Positions 16,474 to 54,047 of a stretch of 64,000 nt of DNA are shown here, piece after piece. Origin of the DNA: Acidobacteria bacterium AB60 (lineage in GTDB: Bacteria; Acidobacteriota; Terriglobia; Terriglobales; Acidobacteriaceae); NCBI GenBank assembly GCA_008682415.1, contig VANK01000007.1:124001-188000 (forward strand). Direction: 5' to 3'. How positions within the stretch are numbered: the stretch's first letter is position 1; each line of letters opens with the position of its first letter. The notes under the pieces were generated by a model. The model worked only from the letters and a program-made list of their open reading frames with translations, ran no database searches and was not told the DNA's origin. The position numbers and the translations under genes were made by a program.

Positions 16474-17559
16474 TTAAAGAATGGGCGTACCTTCCCTGAT
16501 TTCGTCGGATGCTCGCTTGACGACCTCTTCTCCCGGTTTGATTTCTCCGCGAATGGCCACCTGATCGCCGAAGACCGGCCCCTTGCGCACGTTGACCCAA
16601 TGGGCCTTGCCGTTCAGGGCGGTGATGACAAAGGTTCTCTCGGTGGTTGTGACAACGCTGGTGGAAGGGACCACGAGTTGCGGCTGTGCCGATCTGACCG
16701 GCCAATCGACGGTTGGGTACATGCCCGGCGCGAGCGTGCCATCTTTATTGAAGGCATCCAGTTCGACCATCATCGTGCGGCTTTGCGGGTCAAGAGCGCT
16801 GGCAATCCTGGCGATCTTCGCACTGTAGTTCTTTCCCGGCTGCGACGCGATGTGGAACGGCACGGAGGCGCCGCGAACGATGTGTCCAACGTAGGTTTCG
16901 GGAAGCGGAACGGTTAAACGGAGATGAGAGATCTGCTGGAGTTTCAGGAGCGGGAGATGTCCTCCGGCGGGAACCATGACCCCGGGATGCGCATAGCGAT
17001 TGGTAATTGTTCCGTCGAACGGTGCCGTGATGCGAAGATAACTCTCCGTGGTCTTTGCTGCGGTGACGCGTTCCTGTGCCGCCTGCACGGCCGCCTTTTT
17101 GCTCTGGACCACTGATTTTGCGGCATTGAGCTGCTTTTCTGCCTGAATCAATTCGTTGCCGGCAACAGCGCCCGGTGTTTTGGCCGCTTCGGCGAGACGG
17201 TCATACGTGCTTTGAACCGCGGCAGCCTGCGACTCTGCCTGACTCTCTTCTGCCTCTGCTTCGTGGAATGCCGATTCGGCGGCGGCGGTATCAGCCGCGA
17301 GTTCGGGGGCGGAGAGTTGCACCAGTAACTGACCGCGTTTCACCTTGCTGCCGCGATCTACCAGCACGGTTTCGATATATCCCGGAACGCGGGCCTCAAT
17401 CTCGGCCTGGAGGTAAGGCTCCAGCTCTGCAGGCAGCGATACGGTTCGATCCGCGGCACGAGTTTCGACCGGCGCCATCTCCAGATGCCGCAGGGACTGG
17501 CTCGGCAAAGGAAGCGCGATTCCGAGAGATGCCAGAAGGATGGCTCTAGGCTTGAACAT
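16474..17559 (-). CDS. RND efflux periplasmic adaptor (HlyD/MFP)
   Basis: 361 residues from the ATG at 17559 (an in-frame TTG lies 7 codons earlier). Residues 1 to about 22 form a signal peptide. The membrane-fusion-protein layout follows: first lipoyl half (ARVPGYIETVLVDRGSKVKRGQLLVQL), a long alpha-hairpin rich in Ala, Glu and Gln, second lipoyl half (YLRITAPFDGTITNRYAHPGVMV), then beta-barrel and membrane-proximal domains. It bridges the inner-membrane pump and TolC. The start overlaps the stop of the pump's second half by 14 bp, so the operon is translationally coupled. Confidence 0.92.
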   Translation of the reverse strand: MFKPRAILLASLGIALPLPSQSLRHLEMAPVETRAADRTVSLPAELEPYLQAEIEARVPGYIETVLVDRGSKVKRGQLLVQLSAPELAADTAAAESAFHEAEAEESQAESQAAAVQSTYDRLAEAAKTPGAVAGNELIQAEKQLNAAKSVVQSKKAAVQAAQERVTAAKTTESYLRITAPFDGTITNRYAHPGVMVPAGGHLPLLKLQQISHLRLTVPLPETYVGHIVRGASVPFHIASQPGKNYSAKIARIASALDPQSRTMMVELDAFNKDGTLAPGMYPTVDWPVRSAQPQLVVPSTSVVTTTERTFVITALNGKAHWVNVRKGPVFGDQVAIRGEIKPGEEVVKRASDEIREGTPIL

Positions 17560-18334
17560 GGTAGCGGCTCTCAGGGTCAAGCGGGTTCAGGGAGCTCGAG
17601 TTAGTGGACGCATTCTTCTGCAGAAGCGCGTAGATGGCGGGAAGAATCAGAAGAGTGGTGCAGGTGGAGAACACGAGGCCTCCAATGACGGCGCGCCCGA
17701 GAGGGGCAGCTTCAGGACCACCCTCGCCGAAGCCGATGGCCATAGGAATCATGCCGGCAATCATTGCGCAGGCAGTCATCAGGACAGCGCGCAGGCGGCC
17801 CAGAGCCCCGGACTGCGCGGCGCCGCCCGTGCCTTCTGTGCGCCGGGCATGCTCGGCGAAGCTGACGAGAAGAATGGAATTTGCGACGGATATGCCGACC
17901 GCCATGATGGCTCCCATAAAAGATTGGATATTGAGGGTGGTCCCCGTCAGCAGCAGCATCAGGACGACGCCGGCGAGAACTCCGGGGATGGTGCTGAGAA
18001 CCACAAGAGGCAGACGAACGGATTGGAAGTTGGCCATCAAGAGCAGGAAGATGCTGGCGATTGCCAGGAGAAGACCAACGCGGAGACCTGACACGGTCTC
18101 CTGGAGTGCCGGCACCTCGCCGCGCACGATTACTGTAGAACCCTTGGGTGGCGGCGGAATGTTCTTGAGAGCGTGCTGAATGTGGGTCTGGGCATCGCCC
18201 AGAGTGATGTCATGCAGATTGGCCGTGACACTTACCACGCGTTGACCGCTGAATCGCTCAATGAGTTCGGGCATCGAGCCAACTTCGATTTTGGCCACTT
18301 GATCCAGCTGCGGCTGCGCCTGCCCGGCCTCCAT
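17546..18334 (-). pseudogene. RND pump, C-terminal part downstream of an apparent frameshift
   Basis: 262 codons covering the last periplasmic subdomain and TM8-TM12 of an RND permease (VAKIEVGSMPELIERFSGQRVVSV, later the LLLTGTTLNIQSFMGAIMAVGISVANSILLVSFAEHARR helix). The ATG overlaps the TGA of the preceding part as TGATG. Reading this frame upstream of the ATG gives ALSALPL, exactly what should follow the PPSRAQGIP end of the first part, so one base (a G in a CCGGCGC-like context near 18353) seems to be missing. It could be an assembly error, a real mutation, or two chains made by reinitiation. Confidence 0.8.
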
Positions 18335-20688
18335 CAGCGGAAGCGCTGATAGCGCGGGATGCCTTGCGCGCGGCTGGGTGGAATCTGCACCTGGATCTGG
18401 AACGCATTGCCCGTCCGCGGATCACGCCAGTAGGTGGGGGTGGTGAAGCGGGAGGATCCCGTGGCCGCTACCATCGAATTCGCGATGTCGGCCATCGTAA
18501 GCCCAAATTGGCCGGCATACTCCCGATTAACATTCACCTCGACGGTGGGAAACTTCTGCTGCTGAACCACGGAGATGTCACGAAGAAACGCCAGCTTGTG
18601 CAATTCCGCTTCGATTTTTGCGAGGTAGGCATAGTTCTGGTCGAGATCCACCCCCTGCACGTCGATCTGCACCGGAGTGGGGGAACCGAAACTCATGACC
18701 TGCGCGATGATGTCGCCAGCCTCAAAGGAAAGCTGGAACTGGGGCATCTCTCGCGCGAATGCGGCGCGCAAGTCTTCGCGTAAGCGCTCGTCCTTCGGGT
18801 GTGATCTGCGAAGCTGCACCTGCATGAGAACCTCTTCCGGCCCGCTCGTGAAGAGGTGAATCAGGTTGACTGGATAGCTGGAGGGCTGGACGCCAACATA
18901 GTCCGTCGTGATTTCCAGGTTCTGGTGACCGACGGTGCGGCGGACCAGATCGAGGGCCCGAATCGCCAGCGGTTCGGTTTGCTCGATGCGGGTGCCGATA
19001 GGAGCTTTGAGGCGAACGCGTAGAACGGGACCGTCCGGATCCGGGAATATTTCTGTGCCAAGGTGGGGTACTACGAGGGCAAGAACCACTATGGCTGTAA
19101 CGAAGTAGCCGAGAACGAATCCCCAGCGACGTCCTTCGAGATACTGGAGGTATTGCTCATAGCGCGCATGGATCTTGCCAAAGAATCCGTGGGTCTGCTC
19201 CCGTCCATGGGCTTCTTTCATGATCCAGATTGCAAACACCGGGACCAGGCTGCTCGACAACAGATAAGAGGCGATCATGGCGAAGCCCACGGCGAGCGAG
19301 AGCGGCACGAACAGTTGACGTCCGACTCCGCGCATAAAGAACGACGGCACAAAGACCGCGAGGACGCACAACATCGACAGGAGGCGCGCGATGACGGTTC
19401 GCCTGCAGGCTTCTACGACTGCCTGCGCGCGGGAAGTGCCTGGAAGCAATTGCGTGTGGATGTTCTCTACTTCTACGGTTGCTTCATCGACCAGCACGCC
19501 GACCGCGAGCGCCAGACCGCCCAAGGTCATGATGTTGATGGTCTGACCGGCGGACCACAGCCCCAGCACTGCCGTTGCCAGTGCAAACGGGATATTGGCG
19601 ACCACGATGATTGCCCCGCGCCAGTCGCGAAGAAAGATGAGGACAACCACGCCGGTGAGTACTGCGCCAAGGAGAGCTTCGCGGACCAGGCTGCTGATGG
19701 CATTCGAGACGTAGGGGGACTGATCAAAGGCGAGCTGAATATCGACGTCGTCCGGCACGGCCTTCTTGAATGAAGGGATGGCTGCCTTTACGGCTCTTAT
19801 GACCGCCAAGGTGGAGGCATCGGCGCGTTTCGTGACCGGAATGTAGACGGTCCGGTGACCATCTACGTGCGCATAGGCGGTGACGATATCGGTTCCGTTC
19901 TCTACCGAGCCGATGTCACGCAGGTACACGCTGGTTCCGGAAGCCGGGTGTACGGGAGCATTCATCAGGTCGCTCAACTCCGGGCCCAGCGTTCCGTTGG
20001 TGCGTACGATGCGATTGAGCGTTCCATCGTATAGATTTCCTGACGGCGTGACGACCGAGCTGCTTGCCACGGCTGCAATCGCTTGCTCGGGGGAGATGTG
20101 ATACTGCTTCAGCTTATCGGGATCGAGATTTACAACGATAGTCCGCTGATTTCCGCCAAAGGGGGGCGGCGCAGAGACTCCGGGCAAGGTGGCGAAGAGC
20201 GGCCGTACCTGATTGAGGGCATAGTTCTGCAGCTCGCCTTGGGTGTGATTGCCGCTGGAAAACAGCAGCAGTCCCACGGCCACGCTTCCCGGGTCGAAGC
20301 GCGTGATGAAGGGCGGCACCGTGCCGGGCGGCATGAACGCGTGGGCCCGGTTCACATAGCCGACGGTCTCGGCCATTGCCTGCTGCATGTTGGTGCCTTC
20401 GCGGAAGGTGAGCTTGAGCAGCGAGGCGCCCTGAATGCTTTTGCTGTCGACGGACTGAATACCCGTGATGTAGAGGAAATGGTACTCGTAGTAGTAGGTG
20501 ATGAATCCTTCCATTTGCGCGGGCGTCATGCCTCCATAAGGCTGCGCCACATAGATGACGGGATTGCCGATCTCGGGAAAGATGTCCGCGCGCATCCGGC
20601 TTACGGCCATGATGAAGCCGGCCACGACGGCAATGAGGGCCACAATGACCGAGAGCGGATGACTGAGGGCTGAGAGGACGAGACGCAT
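18334..20688 (-). pseudogene. RND efflux permease, N-terminal 3/4, frameshifted
   Basis: 784 codons from the ATG at 20688 (MRLVLSALSHPLS), 17 bp after the TolC-like stop; the open frame runs further upstream but overlaps that gene. It shows TM1, the porter domains, TM2-TM7 with the TM4 proton-relay motif GVLVDEATVEVENI, and the second porter domain, then stops just after IQVQIPPSRAQGIP. With the 262-residue second part it totals about 1046 residues, the normal RND length. RND pumps exchange protons for drugs or metabolites; only an intact or reassembled protein would transport. Listed as broken because of the frame change. Confidence 0.8.
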
Positions 20689-20705: not shown

Positions 20706-22151
20706 CTACCTGGGAACTGCCTGCAGGAATGGCCGGAGATCGCCGCGAGCGGCATTGAGTTGAAGGAGGGCGCGCCACACGCTCAGTCGGGCGATGGAAT
20801 TATCGACTTCCGCCTGCACGAGCAGCCGCTGTGCCTGGGCGAGATCGTCGATGGGTGTCAATCCGGCCTGATAGCGCGCCTTTGCCTGATCGAATGCCAT
20901 GCGCGCAGACTTCAATTCGATCGGGGTGTTGTTCGCGACCTCTCGGGCTGCAGTGAGCGCGGCCGTGGCTTTTGCGAAGCGTTCATTCAGTTCTTTGTCA
21001 ATCAATTGCTGGCGGGCCTGTTCGGCGCGCATCGTTGCACTCTGGGCTGATGCCTCTGCGTGGATGCGAGCGAAGTCCAGGAAGGAGAAGTTGACGTTGA
21101 AACCCGCAGCGTAGTTCTGGATATTAGGAGTGAGGCCATTCCAGCCGGGGAGGCGGCGCCCATCGGTTTCGGCGCCGGTGCCGCGAGAAGATGCAGCCCC
21201 CTCGAGAGTGAACTGCGGCACCCACGTCCGCTGCAGCGCGTGCAGATGGGCGGCAGACTCTGCCACCGCCGCCCTTTGTTCTTCCATCAGAGGATGCGCG
21301 GCAGTATTGAACTCAGGCTCCTCCTCCGGGGGAGGGAGCTGGGTGAGCAATGGTTTGGAGTCGAGGTTGAGATTCGCAGGAGCGGATGAGAGGAACTTGA
21401 CCAAGGTGGCCTTGCTTTCATCGTCGGCCTGACGTGCATACACAAGTTGGTTCCTAGCCATCGCCAGTTCCGCCTCGATTCGCGATTCGTCGGCACCTGG
21501 CCGCAACTGAGCCGCGGCCAGAGCGTGAATCGTTTTGAGGAGCGTGTTCCAATTCTCTACTGCGGCGGAGGCAGCCCGGACGGTTTCCTGGGCGGCAACG
21601 TGGGAGAGAAAAGCGTCTGCGGCGGCCGCGCCCGCTTCCAATTGGCTGTCCGACAAGGCGGCATCAGCCTTATCTTTGGCCGCGCGGCTTGCCTGTACGT
21701 CTGCGTGACGCAGCCCGAAGTCAAACGGCTGCCAACTCACCAGCACTCCGGCCGCGCTTCCCCACACAGAACCGCCATTGTTGCTGCCAATCACCGGGCC
21801 AGACATGGGCGGAATCGTGCTCTGAGGCAGGAGAGTGCCGAAGACATTGTTTCGAGTGGCCCGATTGGCCTGGAGCAGGGCGTCTATGCGCGGAAGATAC
21901 GCAGTTCTCGCCCGACGGATGTCCGCGATCGTTGCGTTCAATTCTTCTTGAGAAAGATGAATCTGCGGATAATCGCGCTCTGCGGATTGAACCACATCGT
22001 CAAGAGAGATGCCCTCACCCTGAGGTCCTGAGTTAGGAAGCGAGTTGGATTGGGCAGCCGCCAAGCCCACGCAAGAAGCCACCAGCAGCGAGCCAATGCG
22101 AATAGGAAGTTTTTGACGCCTCGTTCCTGCCGACCGTACTTGGGACGTCAC
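20706..22151 (-). CDS. TolC-family outer-membrane efflux protein
   Basis: 481 residues from a GTG at 22151 with GGAGG 5 bp upstream; an earlier in-frame ATG lacks such a site. The N-terminus (residues 1-34, LPIRIGSLLVASCVGLAAAQS) is a signal peptide. The sequence has two repeats of long Ala/Gln/Glu-rich helices with the typical ARTAYLPRIDALLQAN and ARYQAGLTPIDDLAQAQRLLVQAEVD stretches. It forms the outer-membrane channel of the tripartite pump and is the first gene of the operon TolC-RND-adaptor. A symmetric operator-like repeat lies about 60 bp upstream (22212-22230). Confidence 0.93.
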   Translation of the reverse strand: MTSQVRSAGTRRQKLPIRIGSLLVASCVGLAAAQSNSLPNSGPQGEGISLDDVVQSAERDYPQIHLSQEELNATIADIRRARTAYLPRIDALLQANRATRNNVFGTLLPQSTIPPMSGPVIGSNNGGSVWGSAAGVLVSWQPFDFGLRHADVQASRAAKDKADAALSDSQLEAGAAAADAFLSHVAAQETVRAASAAVENWNTLLKTIHALAAAQLRPGADESRIEAELAMARNQLVYARQADDESKATLVKFLSSAPANLNLDSKPLLTQLPPPEEEPEFNTAAHPLMEEQRAAVAESAAHLHALQRTWVPQFTLEGAASSRGTGAETDGRRLPGWNGLTPNIQNYAAGFNVNFSFLDFARIHAEASAQSATMRAEQARQQLIDKELNERFAKATAALTAAREVANNTPIELKSARMAFDQAKARYQAGLTPIDDLAQAQRLLVQAEVDNSIARLSVWRALLQLNAARGDLRPFLQAVPR

Positions 22152-22211
22152 GTGACCTCCAGCCTGAGGACCACCATCCGGCAGCGCTGAAACAGGCTCA
22201 GCAACCCTTGC

Positions 22212-22230
22212 ACAACTATCACATAGTTGT
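22212..22230. promoter_or_regulatory. Inverted repeat upstream of the TolC-RND operon
   Basis: ACAACTAT and ATAGTTGT are perfect 8-bp arms around a CAC spacer, about 60 bp upstream of the TolC-like GTG start. Arm length, AT-richness and position fit an operator for a MarR- or TetR-type repressor of the efflux operon. No regulator gene is adjacent, so the partner is unknown. Confidence 0.55.
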
Positions 22231-22274
22231 AACATCCGCGGCCGTTAGTAATTGAAAGGATGGGGTCACCCAGC

Positions 22275-41469: not shown

Positions 41470-42660
41470 TCACGCTTCGGTCCCCGTCTGTGCTTGAACC
41501 TTCGTTGTGCCGGCGTTCGGCACAATCATCTGAACAACCTTGCTCTGTGCAGCACGCTTGTGCGAGGTCACGGCCTGCGTGTAAACGTCGAGCGTGATCC
41601 GGCTGTTGGCGTGTCGCAAGAGCTCCTGAACCGTCTTCACATCCTCTCCGTTTGCCTTCAGGATAGTTCCGAAGGAATGGCGGAAGGTATGCCAGCCGAT
41701 GTTTTTGTGGATACCGACTTTCTTGGCAGCCGGCTTGATGTAGCGCTTCATGAGGTTGTCCGGCCAGTAGGGCTGCTTCCCCTTCATGCGCGGACTGGCG
41801 AAGACCCAATCGCCTTCCATCGGATAGGCGCAGGCTTTTCTCCAACGCAGAAGATCCTCGGCCATATAGCTGTCCATCGGGACGGGCTTGGCGGAAGCCT
41901 CTGTTTTGCAGACACCCAACACCTGATGCCAGATCGACTCGGTGACGCGAATCTCCAGGCTCTCGAAATCGATGTCATCCCAGCGGAGCGCCAGGAGTTC
42001 ACTGACCCGTAAGCCCGTCGCTGCGTCGAGCAGGACCAAGGTCCGCTCTCGGACGGCGAGCCTTTCGAGAAGTGCTTGAAGCTCGTGAAGTTCGAGCACA
42101 TCGGGAATGCGCTCTCGCTTGGCGCTCTGACGAACGAGCTTGATCGGATTCTTGTCCGTCCACTCGTACCGCATGGCGTGGCTGAAGAGAGCACTCATAA
42201 TGTTGCGAATCTTCGCTTTTGTTCCTCGTGCCCGCTTGATGCTTCCGAGCCACTCTTCCACGGCCACCGACTTGACCTGCTGAAGTCGGTGATTGCCCCA
42301 CCGGGGGAGAATCCAGCCATTCAAATAGCACTGGTATCCGGCTCGTGTCGAGTGCGCCTTGCGTCCCTGGTCGTTCTCGGTCAGTTCCTTCAACCGATAA
42401 TGCTCGATCAGTTCGGCTACTGTGCTGGGGCGACCGTCAGTTCGTGGGGTTTGTTGGTTGGCGTCGATGCGCAACGCTTCTGCTGCTTTGAGTGCGGATG
42501 CTCGATTGGGGAGGTCGGCTACTGATCCGATGACAGTGTTGCGCTGAATACTTTTGCCATTAGGTCCAAGTTCCCTCCACCGAAAGATCCAAACATCCGG
42601 CCCGTTCCGCCGTTTATCGCGTTGCACGCTTCCTTGTTGATACCGTGTGCGCTTAGGCAT
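41470..42660 (-). CDS. int: Tyrosine-type site-specific integrase
   Basis: 396 residues. An N-terminal arm-binding/core-binding region (SVQRDKRRNGPDVWIFRWRE..., STVAELIEHYRLKEL) precedes the catalytic domain. Catalytic residues of the tyrosine recombinase family are visible: the Arg in DAATGLRVSELLALRWDDID (about residues 208-227), HTFRHSFGTIL (His-x-x-Arg, about 323) and the nucleophile Tyr in NSRITLDVYTQAV (about 359). It should integrate and excise the island at the tRNA-Asp att site just downstream of its stop codon. Start ATG follows the frame's first Met with a basic N-terminus. Confidence 0.96.
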   Translation of the reverse strand: MPKRTRYQQGSVQRDKRRNGPDVWIFRWRELGPNGKSIQRNTVIGSVADLPNRASALKAAEALRIDANQQTPRTDGRPSTVAELIEHYRLKELTENDQGRKAHSTRAGYQCYLNGWILPRWGNHRLQQVKSVAVEEWLGSIKRARGTKAKIRNIMSALFSHAMRYEWTDKNPIKLVRQSAKRERIPDVLELHELQALLERLAVRERTLVLLDAATGLRVSELLALRWDDIDFESLEIRVTESIWHQVLGVCKTEASAKPVPMDSYMAEDLLRWRKACAYPMEGDWVFASPRMKGKQPYWPDNLMKRYIKPAAKKVGIHKNIGWHTFRHSFGTILKANGEDVKTVQELLRHANSRITLDVYTQAVTSHKRAAQSKVVQMIVPNAGTTKVQAQTGTEA

Positions 42661-49218: not shown

Positions 49219-49731
49219 CTCGTGATTAGGCTTGCGGGAGAAGCCCATGCGTGCTCTCCGAAGCTCTCGCCGAGAGTGGGTGCGATGTTCCAGCCTGGCG
49301 ACGCGACGATTATCGACGAACAGACTGTATGTATCGAGTCTGCCCGAGGAATCGTGGAATCGCTCTGAAGAGGCCCGGTGCGTCTGAATACTGAAGGTTT
49401 GGGTGATTGTTCAGTCTGTCACGAATGGATGGGAAGCAAGAGCACTAGAATGCCGGACGCCTCCGACGCTTCGTTCCCACAAGATCCAAGGAGATAAGCG
49501 AAGCGAGACTGCAGCAAGGGAACGTCGTTATCGTTCCGTGCTGCGGGCGAGTGACGGCCGGAGTTCAGCGGAAAGAGAGTTGGCGAGAAAGCGGGTGCTC
49601 TCTCACCTTTTGAATTGTGGCTTGTCATCCCGGAAGTGAATTGCTCGGTAGCCCCACACTTCACACCTAGATTGGGATATTCCACGACAAATCCCTTGGA
49701 ATACGCCCATTCTCAATCATATTCTCCTCGC
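49219..49731. other. Island intergenic region with repeat element copy 1
   Basis: 513 bp between the ECF42 sigma gene and the adaptor gene. The stretch about 49507-49615 is similar to 56555-56660 (see repeat entry). The adaptor frame is open from 49615, but its sequence before 49732 is not signal-peptide-like. No other gene recognised. Confidence 0.5.
49507..49612. repeat. Diverged non-coding repeat, copy 1
   Basis: Shares, in order, GCAG, AAGGG, GAACGTCGT, GGCGAGTG, GGCCGGAGT, GAGAGT, GAGAAA and CTCTCT with 56551-56660, on the same strand. Spacing is conserved within a few bases. It may be a mobile non-coding element or a structured RNA; both copies lie in gaps between genes. Confidence 0.5.
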
Positions 49732-50955
49732 GTGAGACAGCCTCTTTCCGACATCCTCGAACTCGGATTTCTATGTGGTTTGGCTTTGTGCTTGACCAGC
49801 TGTCGAGGCGCCAGTGCATCCCAAAACCAATCGACACCCACCGTGCCCGTGAGCGTCGCGAAAGCATATCAGTCGGACATTCCTATACAAGTTCGAGTTC
49901 CCGCCGCAATCACTCCGTTCATCACGGTAAATGTCAAATCGGAAGTGTCGGGGGTATTACGTCGCACACTCGTCCACGAGGGAGAGACTGTTCGCATCGG
50001 GGACAGACTATTTGAGATCGAGCCCGCACCGTTTGAGGCGGCGCTCCGAGAGGCCAAAGCTCAGCTTGAACGGGATACCGCTCAGAAACGGCAAGCCGAA
50101 GCGACTCTCGAGCGCGACATTGCTGCCGCGGAGAACGCTGACAAGCAGGCTAAACGTTACGATCTTCTGGCTTCGGACGGCGTGGTATCAAAGGAGCAGC
50201 AAGAACAATTCCGGACAGCGGCGCGCGTTGCTGACCAGTCTACCGCCGTCGATCGGGCAGCACTTGACGTAGCCACTGGCGCTACCAGAATCGACCAAGC
50301 AGCCATTGATCGAGCACAAGTTGATCTCGACCACTGCACCATTCGGTCCTCACTCGATGGAGTAGCAGGTTATCTGGCCGTTCAGCAGGGTAACTTCGTC
50401 CGCGCAGACGCCGACACCGGCCTAATTACTCTCAATGAGGTCAGCCCAGTTTTCGTGTCGTTCGGCGTCCCGGACCGTTACCTTCAGCAGGTCCGTCTTG
50501 GGATTGAGACTTCACCTCTATCTCTTGCCGTGTTCGTACCTGGTGAAAGACAACCGATCGCACAAGGACTTGTTCGGGAGGTCGACAACACGGTAGACAT
50601 CTCAACAGGCGCGATCCGCTTGAGGGCAGTGGTGCCAAACCATGATCATCGCCTGTGGCCAGGTCAATTTGTTGATGCCGTGCTCAAGCTGGCCACGGAT
50701 CACAAAACCGTGCTGATACCAAAGGCCGCAGTGGAATTGGGTGAACACGGCTCCTACGTATTCACGGTTCGGAAGGACTTCACTGTGGATCAACGCGCTG
50801 TCAGAACAGGTGCGGAAACCGGAGACAGGGTTGAGATCCTAGAGGGGATCGAGCCAGGAGAAGAAGTAGTCACGGACGGGCAATTACGCCTCCGCCCCGG
50901 TACGAAAGTCAGACCCGAACCTGATTTGCCAGCAAGCCAGGGAGGTGGAGATTGA
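49732..50955 (+). CDS. RND efflux periplasmic adaptor lipoprotein
   Basis: 407 residues from a GTG at 49732; the frame is open further upstream and the start is uncertain. An N-terminal hydrophobic stretch ends in a lipobox-like LTSC (around residue 23), suggesting a lipid-anchored protein. MFP layout: VNVKSEVSGVLRRTLVHEGETVRIGDRLFEIEP lipoyl half, alpha-hairpin (AQLERDTAQKRQAEATLERDI...), YLAVQQGNFVRADADTGLITLNEV, then beta-barrel domain. The stop overlaps the pump's TTG start, so the two are coupled. Confidence 0.88.
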   Translation: MRQPLSDILELGFLCGLALCLTSCRGASASQNQSTPTVPVSVAKAYQSDIPIQVRVPAAITPFITVNVKSEVSGVLRRTLVHEGETVRIGDRLFEIEPAPFEAALREAKAQLERDTAQKRQAEATLERDIAAAENADKQAKRYDLLASDGVVSKEQQEQFRTAARVADQSTAVDRAALDVATGATRIDQAAIDRAQVDLDHCTIRSSLDGVAGYLAVQQGNFVRADADTGLITLNEVSPVFVSFGVPDRYLQQVRLGIETSPLSLAVFVPGERQPIAQGLVREVDNTVDISTGAIRLRAVVPNHDHRLWPGQFVDAVLKLATDHKTVLIPKAAVELGEHGSYVFTVRKDFTVDQRAVRTGAETGDRVEILEGIEPGEEVVTDGQLRLRPGTKVRPEPDLPASQGGGD

Positions 50956-53900
50956 ACCCTTCGGCTGTCTTCATTCGTCGCCCTGTCGCCAGCATCTTAC
51001 TGGCCTTGGCGCTGGTCGTCTTCGGTCTCCTCAGCTACCGTGCTTTGCCGGTAAGCGATCTGCCAAGCGTCGAGTTCCCAACAATTACAGTCTCTGCCTC
51101 GCTTCCCGGCGCCAGTCCGGAGATGATGGCCGCATCGGTTGCAACACCACTGGAGCGCCAACTCTCCTCAGTTTCGGGCATCGATTCGATGCACTCGACG
51201 AGCATTCAAGGATCGACCTCCATCACAGTGCAGTTTGCGCTTGATCGCAACATCGACGGGGCGGGACAGGATGTTCAGGCCGCCATATCGCAGGCAGCGC
51301 CACAACTGCCACCCAATATGCCGTCTCCGCCTTCCTACCAAAAATCGAATGCAGCGTCTTTTCCCATTCTGTTCCTTTCGGTGCGATCAGGTTCCTTGCC
51401 CATTCACCTTGTGAACTACTATGCAGAGGCTGTAATAGCTCCGAGGCTCTCGACCGTCTCCGGAGTTGCTCAAGTTCTGACGATCGGTTCGCAGAGGTAC
51501 GCAGTACGAGTACGCATCGATCCGCTCGCTCTGAGTGCTCGCTCAATCGGAATCGACGAACTGGAAAGCGCAATTTCGCAGGCGAATGTCAACCTGCCTG
51601 CGGGCGCGATCTATGGCGAGCACACCATTGTTTTGGATCCCGAAGGCCAGTTGTCTGATGCTGCTGCGTTCGGCGATCTGATAATCGCCTATCGCGCCGG
51701 CTCTCCCGTCCGCTTGCGTGACGTCGCCTACGTCGCAGATGGAATCGAGAACGACAAAGGAGCTGGGTGGCACAACGGCCGGCAAGCCATCGTTTTGGCA
51801 GTTCAACGGCGGCCAGGTGCAAACACCGTGAGCGTAGTTAACGACCTGCAAAGAAAGCTTCCAGAGCTTCGCGAAGAACTACCGCCATCGCTTGATTTGC
51901 AACTGATTTACGACCGATCGAAGCCAATCCGTGCGTCCATAGCTGATGTAAATTCGACGCTCGCAATTACGATTGTTGTCGTCACCCTAGTAGTCTTCGC
52001 CTTTCTGCGGAGTTCTGTGGCTACGGCTATTCCTGCGGTGGCAGTTCCTCTCTCTCTTCTCGGAACGTTTTCCGTGATGCTCATCCTTGGTTACAGCCTC
52101 GATCTTCTATCCCTGATGGCACTGACTCTGGCGGTCGGGTTCGTCATCGACGATGCAATTGTCATGGTTGAGAACATCTCTCGGCATCTGGACGACGGTT
52201 CGGATCCATTGGTAGCAGCCCTTGACGGGTCCAAAGAAGTGGCCTTCACGATCATTTCGATGACCGTCTCACTTGCCGCAGTTTTCATACCTTTGTTGTT
52301 TTTGGGCGGGTTGCTGGGCAGGCTTCTGCGCGAATGCGCAGTCACCATAATGGTCGCGATTCTGGTGTCTGGGGTCATTTCGCTGTCTGTAACGCCGATG
52401 CTCTCGGCCAAACTGCTCCGCCAAACGCCTCCGAGCCAACTGTGGGTGACCCAAATCCTCGAACGAGGTTTGATGGGCTTGCAGTCGTTGTATGAAAAGA
52501 CCTTGGCAATGACTCTACGCTGGAAAAGGATCGCGTTCGCGTTATCGATGATCCTCGTTGTTCTGACTTGCGGTCTGTTCTATTTTTCGCAAAAGGGATT
52601 CATTCCGGCCGACGACGTGGATCTTATTGCCGCCCCGGTTCAGGGCCCCCCGGGGGCATCGTTCGCGAGCATGGAGAGGCATGTACAAGCTGTCACGAAG
52701 CTTGCCCTGAGCGATCAGAATGTTGACTCAACGTTCGCATTCGCTGGCAACGTAAACGGCGCAACCCTGAATTCGGGAATGGTCTTTCTTTATCTTCGTC
52801 CAAGGTCGCAAAGGTCTGAGGGTGTGGATACGGTGATTCAGTCGCTGCGATCCAAGCTGTCAAATATCCCGGGCATCAATCTATTTCTCGTGAATCCGCC
52901 GCCGATTACCATAGGCAGCAATTCAACCCGAAGCCCCTACCAGATCACGCTTCAAAGCAGCGACCTTGAAGAGCTATACCATTGGGCTCCGATCTTGCAG
53001 CAGCGACTCACATCGATCCCGGGGTTCATTGATGTCACGAGCGATTTGGAATTGCGAGCTCCCGAATTGAGTGTGGCTCTTGACCGGGACCGCGCCCAGT
53101 CTCTCGGAATCCCACCGGAACGCGCATATGATGCGCTCTATACGGTGTTCGGAGACCGCCAGATTAGCCTTATTCATGCTCCATCGAACGAATACCGTGT
53201 GATCACGGAATTGGGTCCGCAGTATGCGCGTGACCTGAATGCTCTCTCACTGATTCGAGTTCGTTCGGACTCGGGAAGACTAGTACCCCTTGATACGATT
53301 ACTCGGCCCTATTCAAAACTGGGGCCAACCGCAATTCAACACTCCGACCAATCTCCTTCGGTCACGGTTTCGTTTAATCTCGCTCCGGGCGTTTCACTGA
53401 GCGAGGCGACAGGTCGCGCGCAGAGCGCCATCAACGACCTGCGCATGCCATCGACCATGACCGCGTCTTTCCAAGGCACGGCTCAGGCCTTCCAGGCGGC
53501 GGTTCGGGACCTCACCCTGCTCTGTCTCATCGCTGTTTTCGTCATTTATGTGGTGCTCGGAATCCTGTACGAGGATGCACTCCACCCTATGACGATTTTG
53601 TCGGGCCTGCCAGCTGCAAGTCTCGGAGCAATGATTGCCTTGCGCCTTTTTCATTTGCAGCTAGACTTCTATGCATTTGTAGGAGTATTCATGCTGTTCG
53701 GCATCGTTAAGAAGAACGCCATTATGATGATCGATTTCGCGATTGCAATTCGGGCGACTGAGCACACAACCGCAGAACAGGCCATTCGCCGTGGATGCCT
53801 CATGAGGTTCAGGCCGATCATGATGACGACTGCAGCGGCCCTGCTCGCTGCACTACCCGTGGCGTTTGGCTTCGGCGCGGGGGCCCAATCCCGACGATCC

Positions 53901-54047
53901 TTGGGGGTCGCCGTTGTAGGTGGGTTGCTAGTCTCACAATTGCTGACCCTTTACATCACGCCCGTGATTTATGTCTACTTGGAACGGACTAGAGACATAC
54001 TCACGAGAGCGTTCGCCAGGCACCGCAAAGCATTTCAGAGTGCTTAA
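50952..54047 (+). CDS. RND efflux permease, HAE1/MdtB-C-like
   Basis: 1031 residues, full length, from a TTG at 50952 with GGAGGTG upstream. TM1 (RRPVASILLALALVVFGLLSYRALPV) and the porter-domain pattern are standard; TM4 has GFVIDDAIVMVENI, with the paired aspartates of proton transport; TM10-12 include VGVFMLFGIVKKNAIMMIDFAI. Drug-exporting RND pumps of the MdtB/C or AcrB type look like this. Unlike the chromosomal pump at 17546-20688 it is intact. No TolC gene lies in the island, so it must borrow a channel (possibly from 20706-22151). Confidence 0.95.
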   Translation: MNPSAVFIRRPVASILLALALVVFGLLSYRALPVSDLPSVEFPTITVSASLPGASPEMMAASVATPLERQLSSVSGIDSMHSTSIQGSTSITVQFALDRNIDGAGQDVQAAISQAAPQLPPNMPSPPSYQKSNAASFPILFLSVRSGSLPIHLVNYYAEAVIAPRLSTVSGVAQVLTIGSQRYAVRVRIDPLALSARSIGIDELESAISQANVNLPAGAIYGEHTIVLDPEGQLSDAAAFGDLIIAYRAGSPVRLRDVAYVADGIENDKGAGWHNGRQAIVLAVQRRPGANTVSVVNDLQRKLPELREELPPSLDLQLIYDRSKPIRASIADVNSTLAITIVVVTLVVFAFLRSSVATAIPAVAVPLSLLGTFSVMLILGYSLDLLSLMALTLAVGFVIDDAIVMVENISRHLDDGSDPLVAALDGSKEVAFTIISMTVSLAAVFIPLLFLGGLLGRLLRECAVTIMVAILVSGVISLSVTPMLSAKLLRQTPPSQLWVTQILERGLMGLQSLYEKTLAMTLRWKRIAFALSMILVVLTCGLFYFSQKGFIPADDVDLIAAPVQGPPGASFASMERHVQAVTKLALSDQNVDSTFAFAGNVNGATLNSGMVFLYLRPRSQRSEGVDTVIQSLRSKLSNIPGINLFLVNPPPITIGSNSTRSPYQITLQSSDLEELYHWAPILQQRLTSIPGFIDVTSDLELRAPELSVALDRDRAQSLGIPPERAYDALYTVFGDRQISLIHAPSNEYRVITELGPQYARDLNALSLIRVRSDSGRLVPLDTITRPYSKLGPTAIQHSDQSPSVTVSFNLAPGVSLSEATGRAQSAINDLRMPSTMTASFQGTAQAFQAAVRDLTLLCLIAVFVIYVVLGILYEDALHPMTILSGLPAASLGAMIALRLFHLQLDFYAFVGVFMLFGIVKKNAIMMIDFAIAIRATEHTTAEQAIRRGCLMRFRPIMMTTAAALLAALPVAFGFGAGAQSRRSLGVAVVGGLLVSQLLTLYITPVIYVYLERTRDILTRAFARHRKAFQSA

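Follow-up and report, generated by a model that had tools for sequence, protein, structure and literature searches.

A permease gene of a tripartite RND efflux operon in Acidobacteria bacterium AB60 that was probably inactivated by a recent one-base frameshift

The permease gene of a tripartite RND efflux operon in Acidobacteria bacterium AB60 is divided between two overlapping reading frames, and we consider it probable that a recent one-base frameshift has inactivated the pump in this lineage. The gene lies in a window, meaning here the whole stretch of DNA analysed, of 64,000 nucleotides (contig VANK01000007.1, positions 124,001 to 188,000), and the features of the operon are collected in Table 1. 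An earlier sequence-only reading had described two in-order frames of 784 and 262 codons that overlap as TGATG, and the sizes, the coordinates and the overlap given there all hold. None of the relatives examined shares this split.

Table 1. Features of the RND efflux operon, in positions of the window
Feature	Position	Strand	Basis and remarks
TolC-type outer membrane factor, upstream gene	20706..22235	-	Pfam OEP, E 3.9e-27; start codon uncertain
First frame, RND permease	18334..20688	-	ATG at 20688, 784 codons, TGA 18336-18334
Stretch one base short of relatives	18343..18366	-	Alignment; limits approximate, picked by eye
TGATG stop/start overlap of the two permease frames	18332..18336	-	Read from sequence
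Second frame, RND permease	17546..18334	-	ATG 18334-18332, 262 codons, stop ends 17546
Periplasmic adaptor (membrane fusion protein)	16474..17559	-	TIGR01730, 197.1 bits vs cut-off 94.9

The operon is a standard tripartite RND efflux operon, made up of a TolC-type channel, a permease and an adaptor. The order TolC, pump, adaptor was found in 18 of the 20 loci L050 to L069, the other two (L064 and L068) being cut by contig ends. The likely start of the adaptor, which is listed from an in-frame TTG at 17580, is an ATG placed so that the two genes overlap by 14 bases at the final codons of the pump; in each of the eight close loci (L050 to L057) the adaptor match begins before the pump stop, and an ATG occupies the equivalent position. 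Among named records, those closest to the pump are an Acidobacteriales MAG and Edaphobacter. A 150-base stretch is common to Edaphobacter lichenicola M8UP30 (L054) and a genome from the family of the window (L023), and by this the window belongs to the Edaphobacter family. The TolC-permease-adaptor operon of Edaphobacter modestus DSM 18101 (Acidobacteriaceae; L053), which has a permease of the AcrB/AcrD/AcrF type (PF00873), shows the same gene order, and its pump is 82 % identical to that of the window over the first frame and 75 % identical over the second. However, the L053 pump is a single frame of 1047 codons, whereas the window pump is in two frames and one base short.

The pump differs from AcrB-type pumps in having Ala where the aligned residue of TM10 is Lys (AVGISVANSIL in the window), and its TM4 reads Asp-Glu (AVGVLVDEA in the window) for the Asp-Asp of the AcrB type. 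A strict pattern applied to 30 relatives gave 30 occurrences of this TM4 form and 20 of the TM10 form; we take these positions to be the proton-relay places of AcrB-type pumps. The window holds a second RND permease, which is whole (50952-54047; ACR_tran 3-1020/1021, E 1.2e-291) and is accompanied by an adaptor at 49615-50955. A phage-integrase-type recombinase lies at 41470-42660, and the G+C content is lower from approximately 42 to 56 kb, possibly an acquired region.

The two frames hold consecutive parts of the same family model. The first frame, 814 codons long when counted from the in-frame GTG further upstream (20778) at which it is listed, matches positions 5-750 of the 1021 in Pfam ACR_tran (PF00873; E 9e-121, 404.8 bits), and the second matches positions 789-1020 (E 2.1e-47, 162 bits), both far above the cut-off of 28. 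As these parts follow one another in adjacent frames, the arrangement is not due to chance. RND permeases have twelve membrane segments. The first frame encodes the N-terminal half, the membrane segment that follows and the greater part of the second periplasmic loop; the end of that loop and the remaining membrane segments are encoded by the second frame. When aligned with MdtB, the first frame reaches residue 752 and the second corresponds to residues 792-1026, so that the break falls inside the second periplasmic loop. The permease thus covers the AcrB-type model along its length but as two pieces, and the one continuous chain of an AcrB-type permease is interrupted, once only within 3.1 kb, by a TGA after 784 codons. 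Against NF033617 (RND_permease_2) the pieces score 325.5 and 155 bits, and their sum is also far under 1250, a cut-off set for the whole protein while the pieces were scored apart.

The window is one base short just before the overlap, and none of 30 aligned relatives has a gap there, which supports the one-base frameshift proposed from the sequence; in the same alignment the second frame, when read back, resumes the conserved sequence, as had also been proposed. The shortfall was placed in that reading near 18353, and the alignment gap sits a few bases away; the exact base lost cannot be fixed because the codons at the site vary among relatives. The alignment was made from those of 53 related loci (L021 to L073) that share approximately 65 % identity or more in the first piece and reach the junction; its 30 loci give 29 distinct rows and include three (L031, L060 and L069) that are themselves broken at other sites.

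Over the full set of 53 loci, some of which share DNA among themselves and many of which are only about 50 % identical, 48 have the pump as a single frame of 1030 codons or more; in two (L068 and L073) it is cut by a contig or locus end, and in three it is broken, each away from the site in the window. The comparison with the same operon in relatives that had been suggested as a check therefore came out in favour of a break confined to the window (0/53 loci broken at its site). In L031 (G196) there is a frame change near residue 658, in L060 an in-frame stop after residue 722, and in L069 a frame change near residue 92 and an in-frame stop after 586; these breaks arose independently, as real losses or draft errors. 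Further pump matches outside the 53 loci lie in open frames of 1020-1173 codons, and in 13 loci measured the pump is 1047-1051 codons long. The frame in the window is broken where its relatives are intact, as in a recently inactivated gene.

Both pieces have changed no faster than their intact partner genes, and there is no visible decay. The proportion of nonsynonymous differences between the window and L050, divided by that between L053 and L050, is 1.71 for the first piece, 1.30 for the second, 1.69 for the adaptor and 1.65 for TolC. When the window is instead compared with L053, the corresponding values are 1.90, 1.67, 1.77 and 1.90. These ratios are a descriptive comparison without a formal test, in which the last 7 codons of the first piece and gap columns were omitted and a locus was excluded wherever <85 % of a gene was matched (L055 in the case of the adaptor). 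As there is neither excess change nor any other break, the loss is either recent or not real, and the absence of decay would be expected equally from a very young mutation and from an error. Synonymous change gives no date because the sites are saturated, the proportion of synonymous differences between the window and relatives being 0.64-0.78 for the pump pieces.

The base is probably absent from the DNA of the living organism as well. In a recent inactivation, the permease gene would have lost one base not long ago, and translation would end after 784 codons, at a premature stop (TGA) within the second periplasmic loop. The pump, no longer one chain, would be inactive. Reinitiation by some ribosomes at the overlapping ATG may carry translation on to the adaptor, which would yield a C-terminal fragment and not a complete pump.

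The distribution of the pump bears on whether it could be lost. Five of 80 genomes of the genus, that of the window included, match at E 1e-150 or better; the other four do so at 49-53 % identity, and the close form (E 1e-150) is in one of the 80, the window's own. Close family forms with 78-83 % identity sit in other genera. From its rarity in the genus the pump looks dispensable, and a horizontal gain followed by loss is plausible on this distribution. In another organism, Brucella ovis, an RND transporter is also recorded as a pseudogene (PMC12306736).

The findings can be accounted for in another way if the missing base is an error of sequencing or assembly, in which case the organism itself would carry a single unbroken pump gene similar in length to those of relatives. 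We regard this as possible though on balance unlikely. The single frame in 48 of 53 related loci, the lack of extra amino acid change in either piece and the single break in 3.1 kb are all what an error would produce. In addition, a survey of 1106 genomes expects lone frameshifts confirmed by BLASTp to reflect sequencing error and not true indels (PMC3711429), and so favours error for a lone case. As far as the survey's description of its GeneTack cases extends, they resemble the one in the window in all respects compared and no difference was found: the break is likewise unconserved and without a homopolymer or slippery site, and both parts are likewise backed by protein and Pfam matches (PMC3711429).

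Against an error stand the site itself and the state of the assembly. Within the 90 bases shared by the two frames no runs of four or more equal bases were found, and the break is therefore not a typical homopolymer slip; CG/GC dinucleotide runs near it, as judged by eye, reach only about three units. The site is also away from contig ends, at 142.3 kb of a contig on which further matches extend up to 286 kb. The genome of 6.65 Mb is in 33 contigs, with completeness 100 and contamination 0.37, and most of the other large genes examined are unbroken, so that broken frames are rare in it.

This last point rests on the length of the frame under each match, a control that would miss a break near a gene end. 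Thirteen other RND pumps found in the genome are in frames of 1029-1158 codons, including two with odd second rows that read as whole (1115 and 1078 codons). Matches to MacB_PCD are in frames of 805-1061 codons in 138 of the 150 scored (154 candidates); the remaining 12 are in shorter frames (369-614 codons), and 11 of these, at 369-504 codons, may be ordinary short permeases. Matches to OMP_b-brl_4 (beta-barrel) are in frames of 943-1529 codons in 61 of 62 cases and in a 125-codon frame in one. A generally poor assembly is not supported by the frame lengths in these three groups, though these lengths leave room for a few other broken genes in the genome. The MacB-type frame of 614 codons (G000:C22:259975-261819; L074:3976-5820) is possibly truncated, and when it was compared with the N-terminal part of two permeases of the window no match was obtained. 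A close second copy of the pump was sought in the genome and not found, the nearest other RND pump being 33 % identical over the first piece; a DNA search of the genome returned the gene and, apart from it, three short stretches at 71-81 %. Two intact RND pumps of the genome have antisense frames opposite them, of 1135 (L002) and 1137 (L003) codons; antisense frames of such length are common where DNA is GC-rich.

A further possibility, that two chains coupled at the TGATG assemble into a working split pump, we consider very doubtful. An overlapping stop and start, as in a coupled gene pair, is present, and such TGATG overlaps support termination-reinitiation, in a study that speaks of 13 of 14 gene pairs tested in an archaeon and E. 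coli (PMC6728339); with the process real at overlaps of this kind, a restart is possible at that of the window. That neither piece shows visible decay would also be expected of a split pump. However, though the window shares the stop/start overlap of the pairs described there (PMC6728339), its overlap is not conserved as a boundary and lacks the Shine-Dalgarno words tested. In the same columns, 23 of the 30 aligned relatives also read TGATG, but out of frame and as part of Leu-Met codons (the other seven have TCATG in four cases and TTATG, TTGGC and TCTCG once each), and in none of the 30 does a gene boundary fall at this place. Because 23 of 30 relatives hold the letters out of frame, the TGATG, as read from the alignment, is no adaptation and not a designed joint. 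Its ATG probably predates the loss of the base, and a -1 change slightly upstream would run into the TGATG stop and meet that ATG. Seven Shine-Dalgarno-like words were sought in the 25 bases before the second ATG and none was present.

The position of the break also argues against a working split pump. None of the 53 loci is split there, and the break lies in a periplasmic loop, between the positions aligned to MdtB 752 and 792. The second chain would have 78 residues ahead of its first hydrophobic segment, and by the topology of RND permeases its start belongs in the periplasm; without a signal peptide, a working two-chain pump is unlikely. Two-chain synthesis by way of the TGATG, which the sequence-only reading had kept as an option, is thus possible but weakened, first by the letters in relatives and further by the missing Shine-Dalgarno words, the unsplit loci and the place of the break. 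A restart there might nevertheless keep the adaptor translated. It is more improbable again that the lost base has made a two-chain RND permease at a latent TGATG restart, with the chains pairing in the membrane and the adaptor still translated.

Finally, a full-length pump produced by programmed -1 ribosomal frameshifting or transcriptional slippage can be all but dismissed: the second frame is at -1 and has no stop over the 29 codons ahead of its ATG, so that a shift would have room to occur, but the 90 shared bases contain neither an X XXY YYZ heptamer, sought in any phase, nor a four-base run, and 48 of the 53 loci need no shift while none breaks here. As gene classes, a programmed frameshift gene was rejected for want of a slippery heptamer or homopolymer and because none of the 30 aligned relatives has the shift, and a phase-variable gene for want of a homopolymer of four or more at the break.

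Most likely, then, the divided frame reflects ordinary recent gene loss or a sequencing slip and not a new two-part pump. Frameshifted genes are common, and the case is of little importance alone. If the two-chain reading were true, here would be an RND permease able to function despite a cut in its second periplasmic loop. For annotators, a TGATG overlap is not evidence of evolved coupling where ordinary codons already supply the letters.
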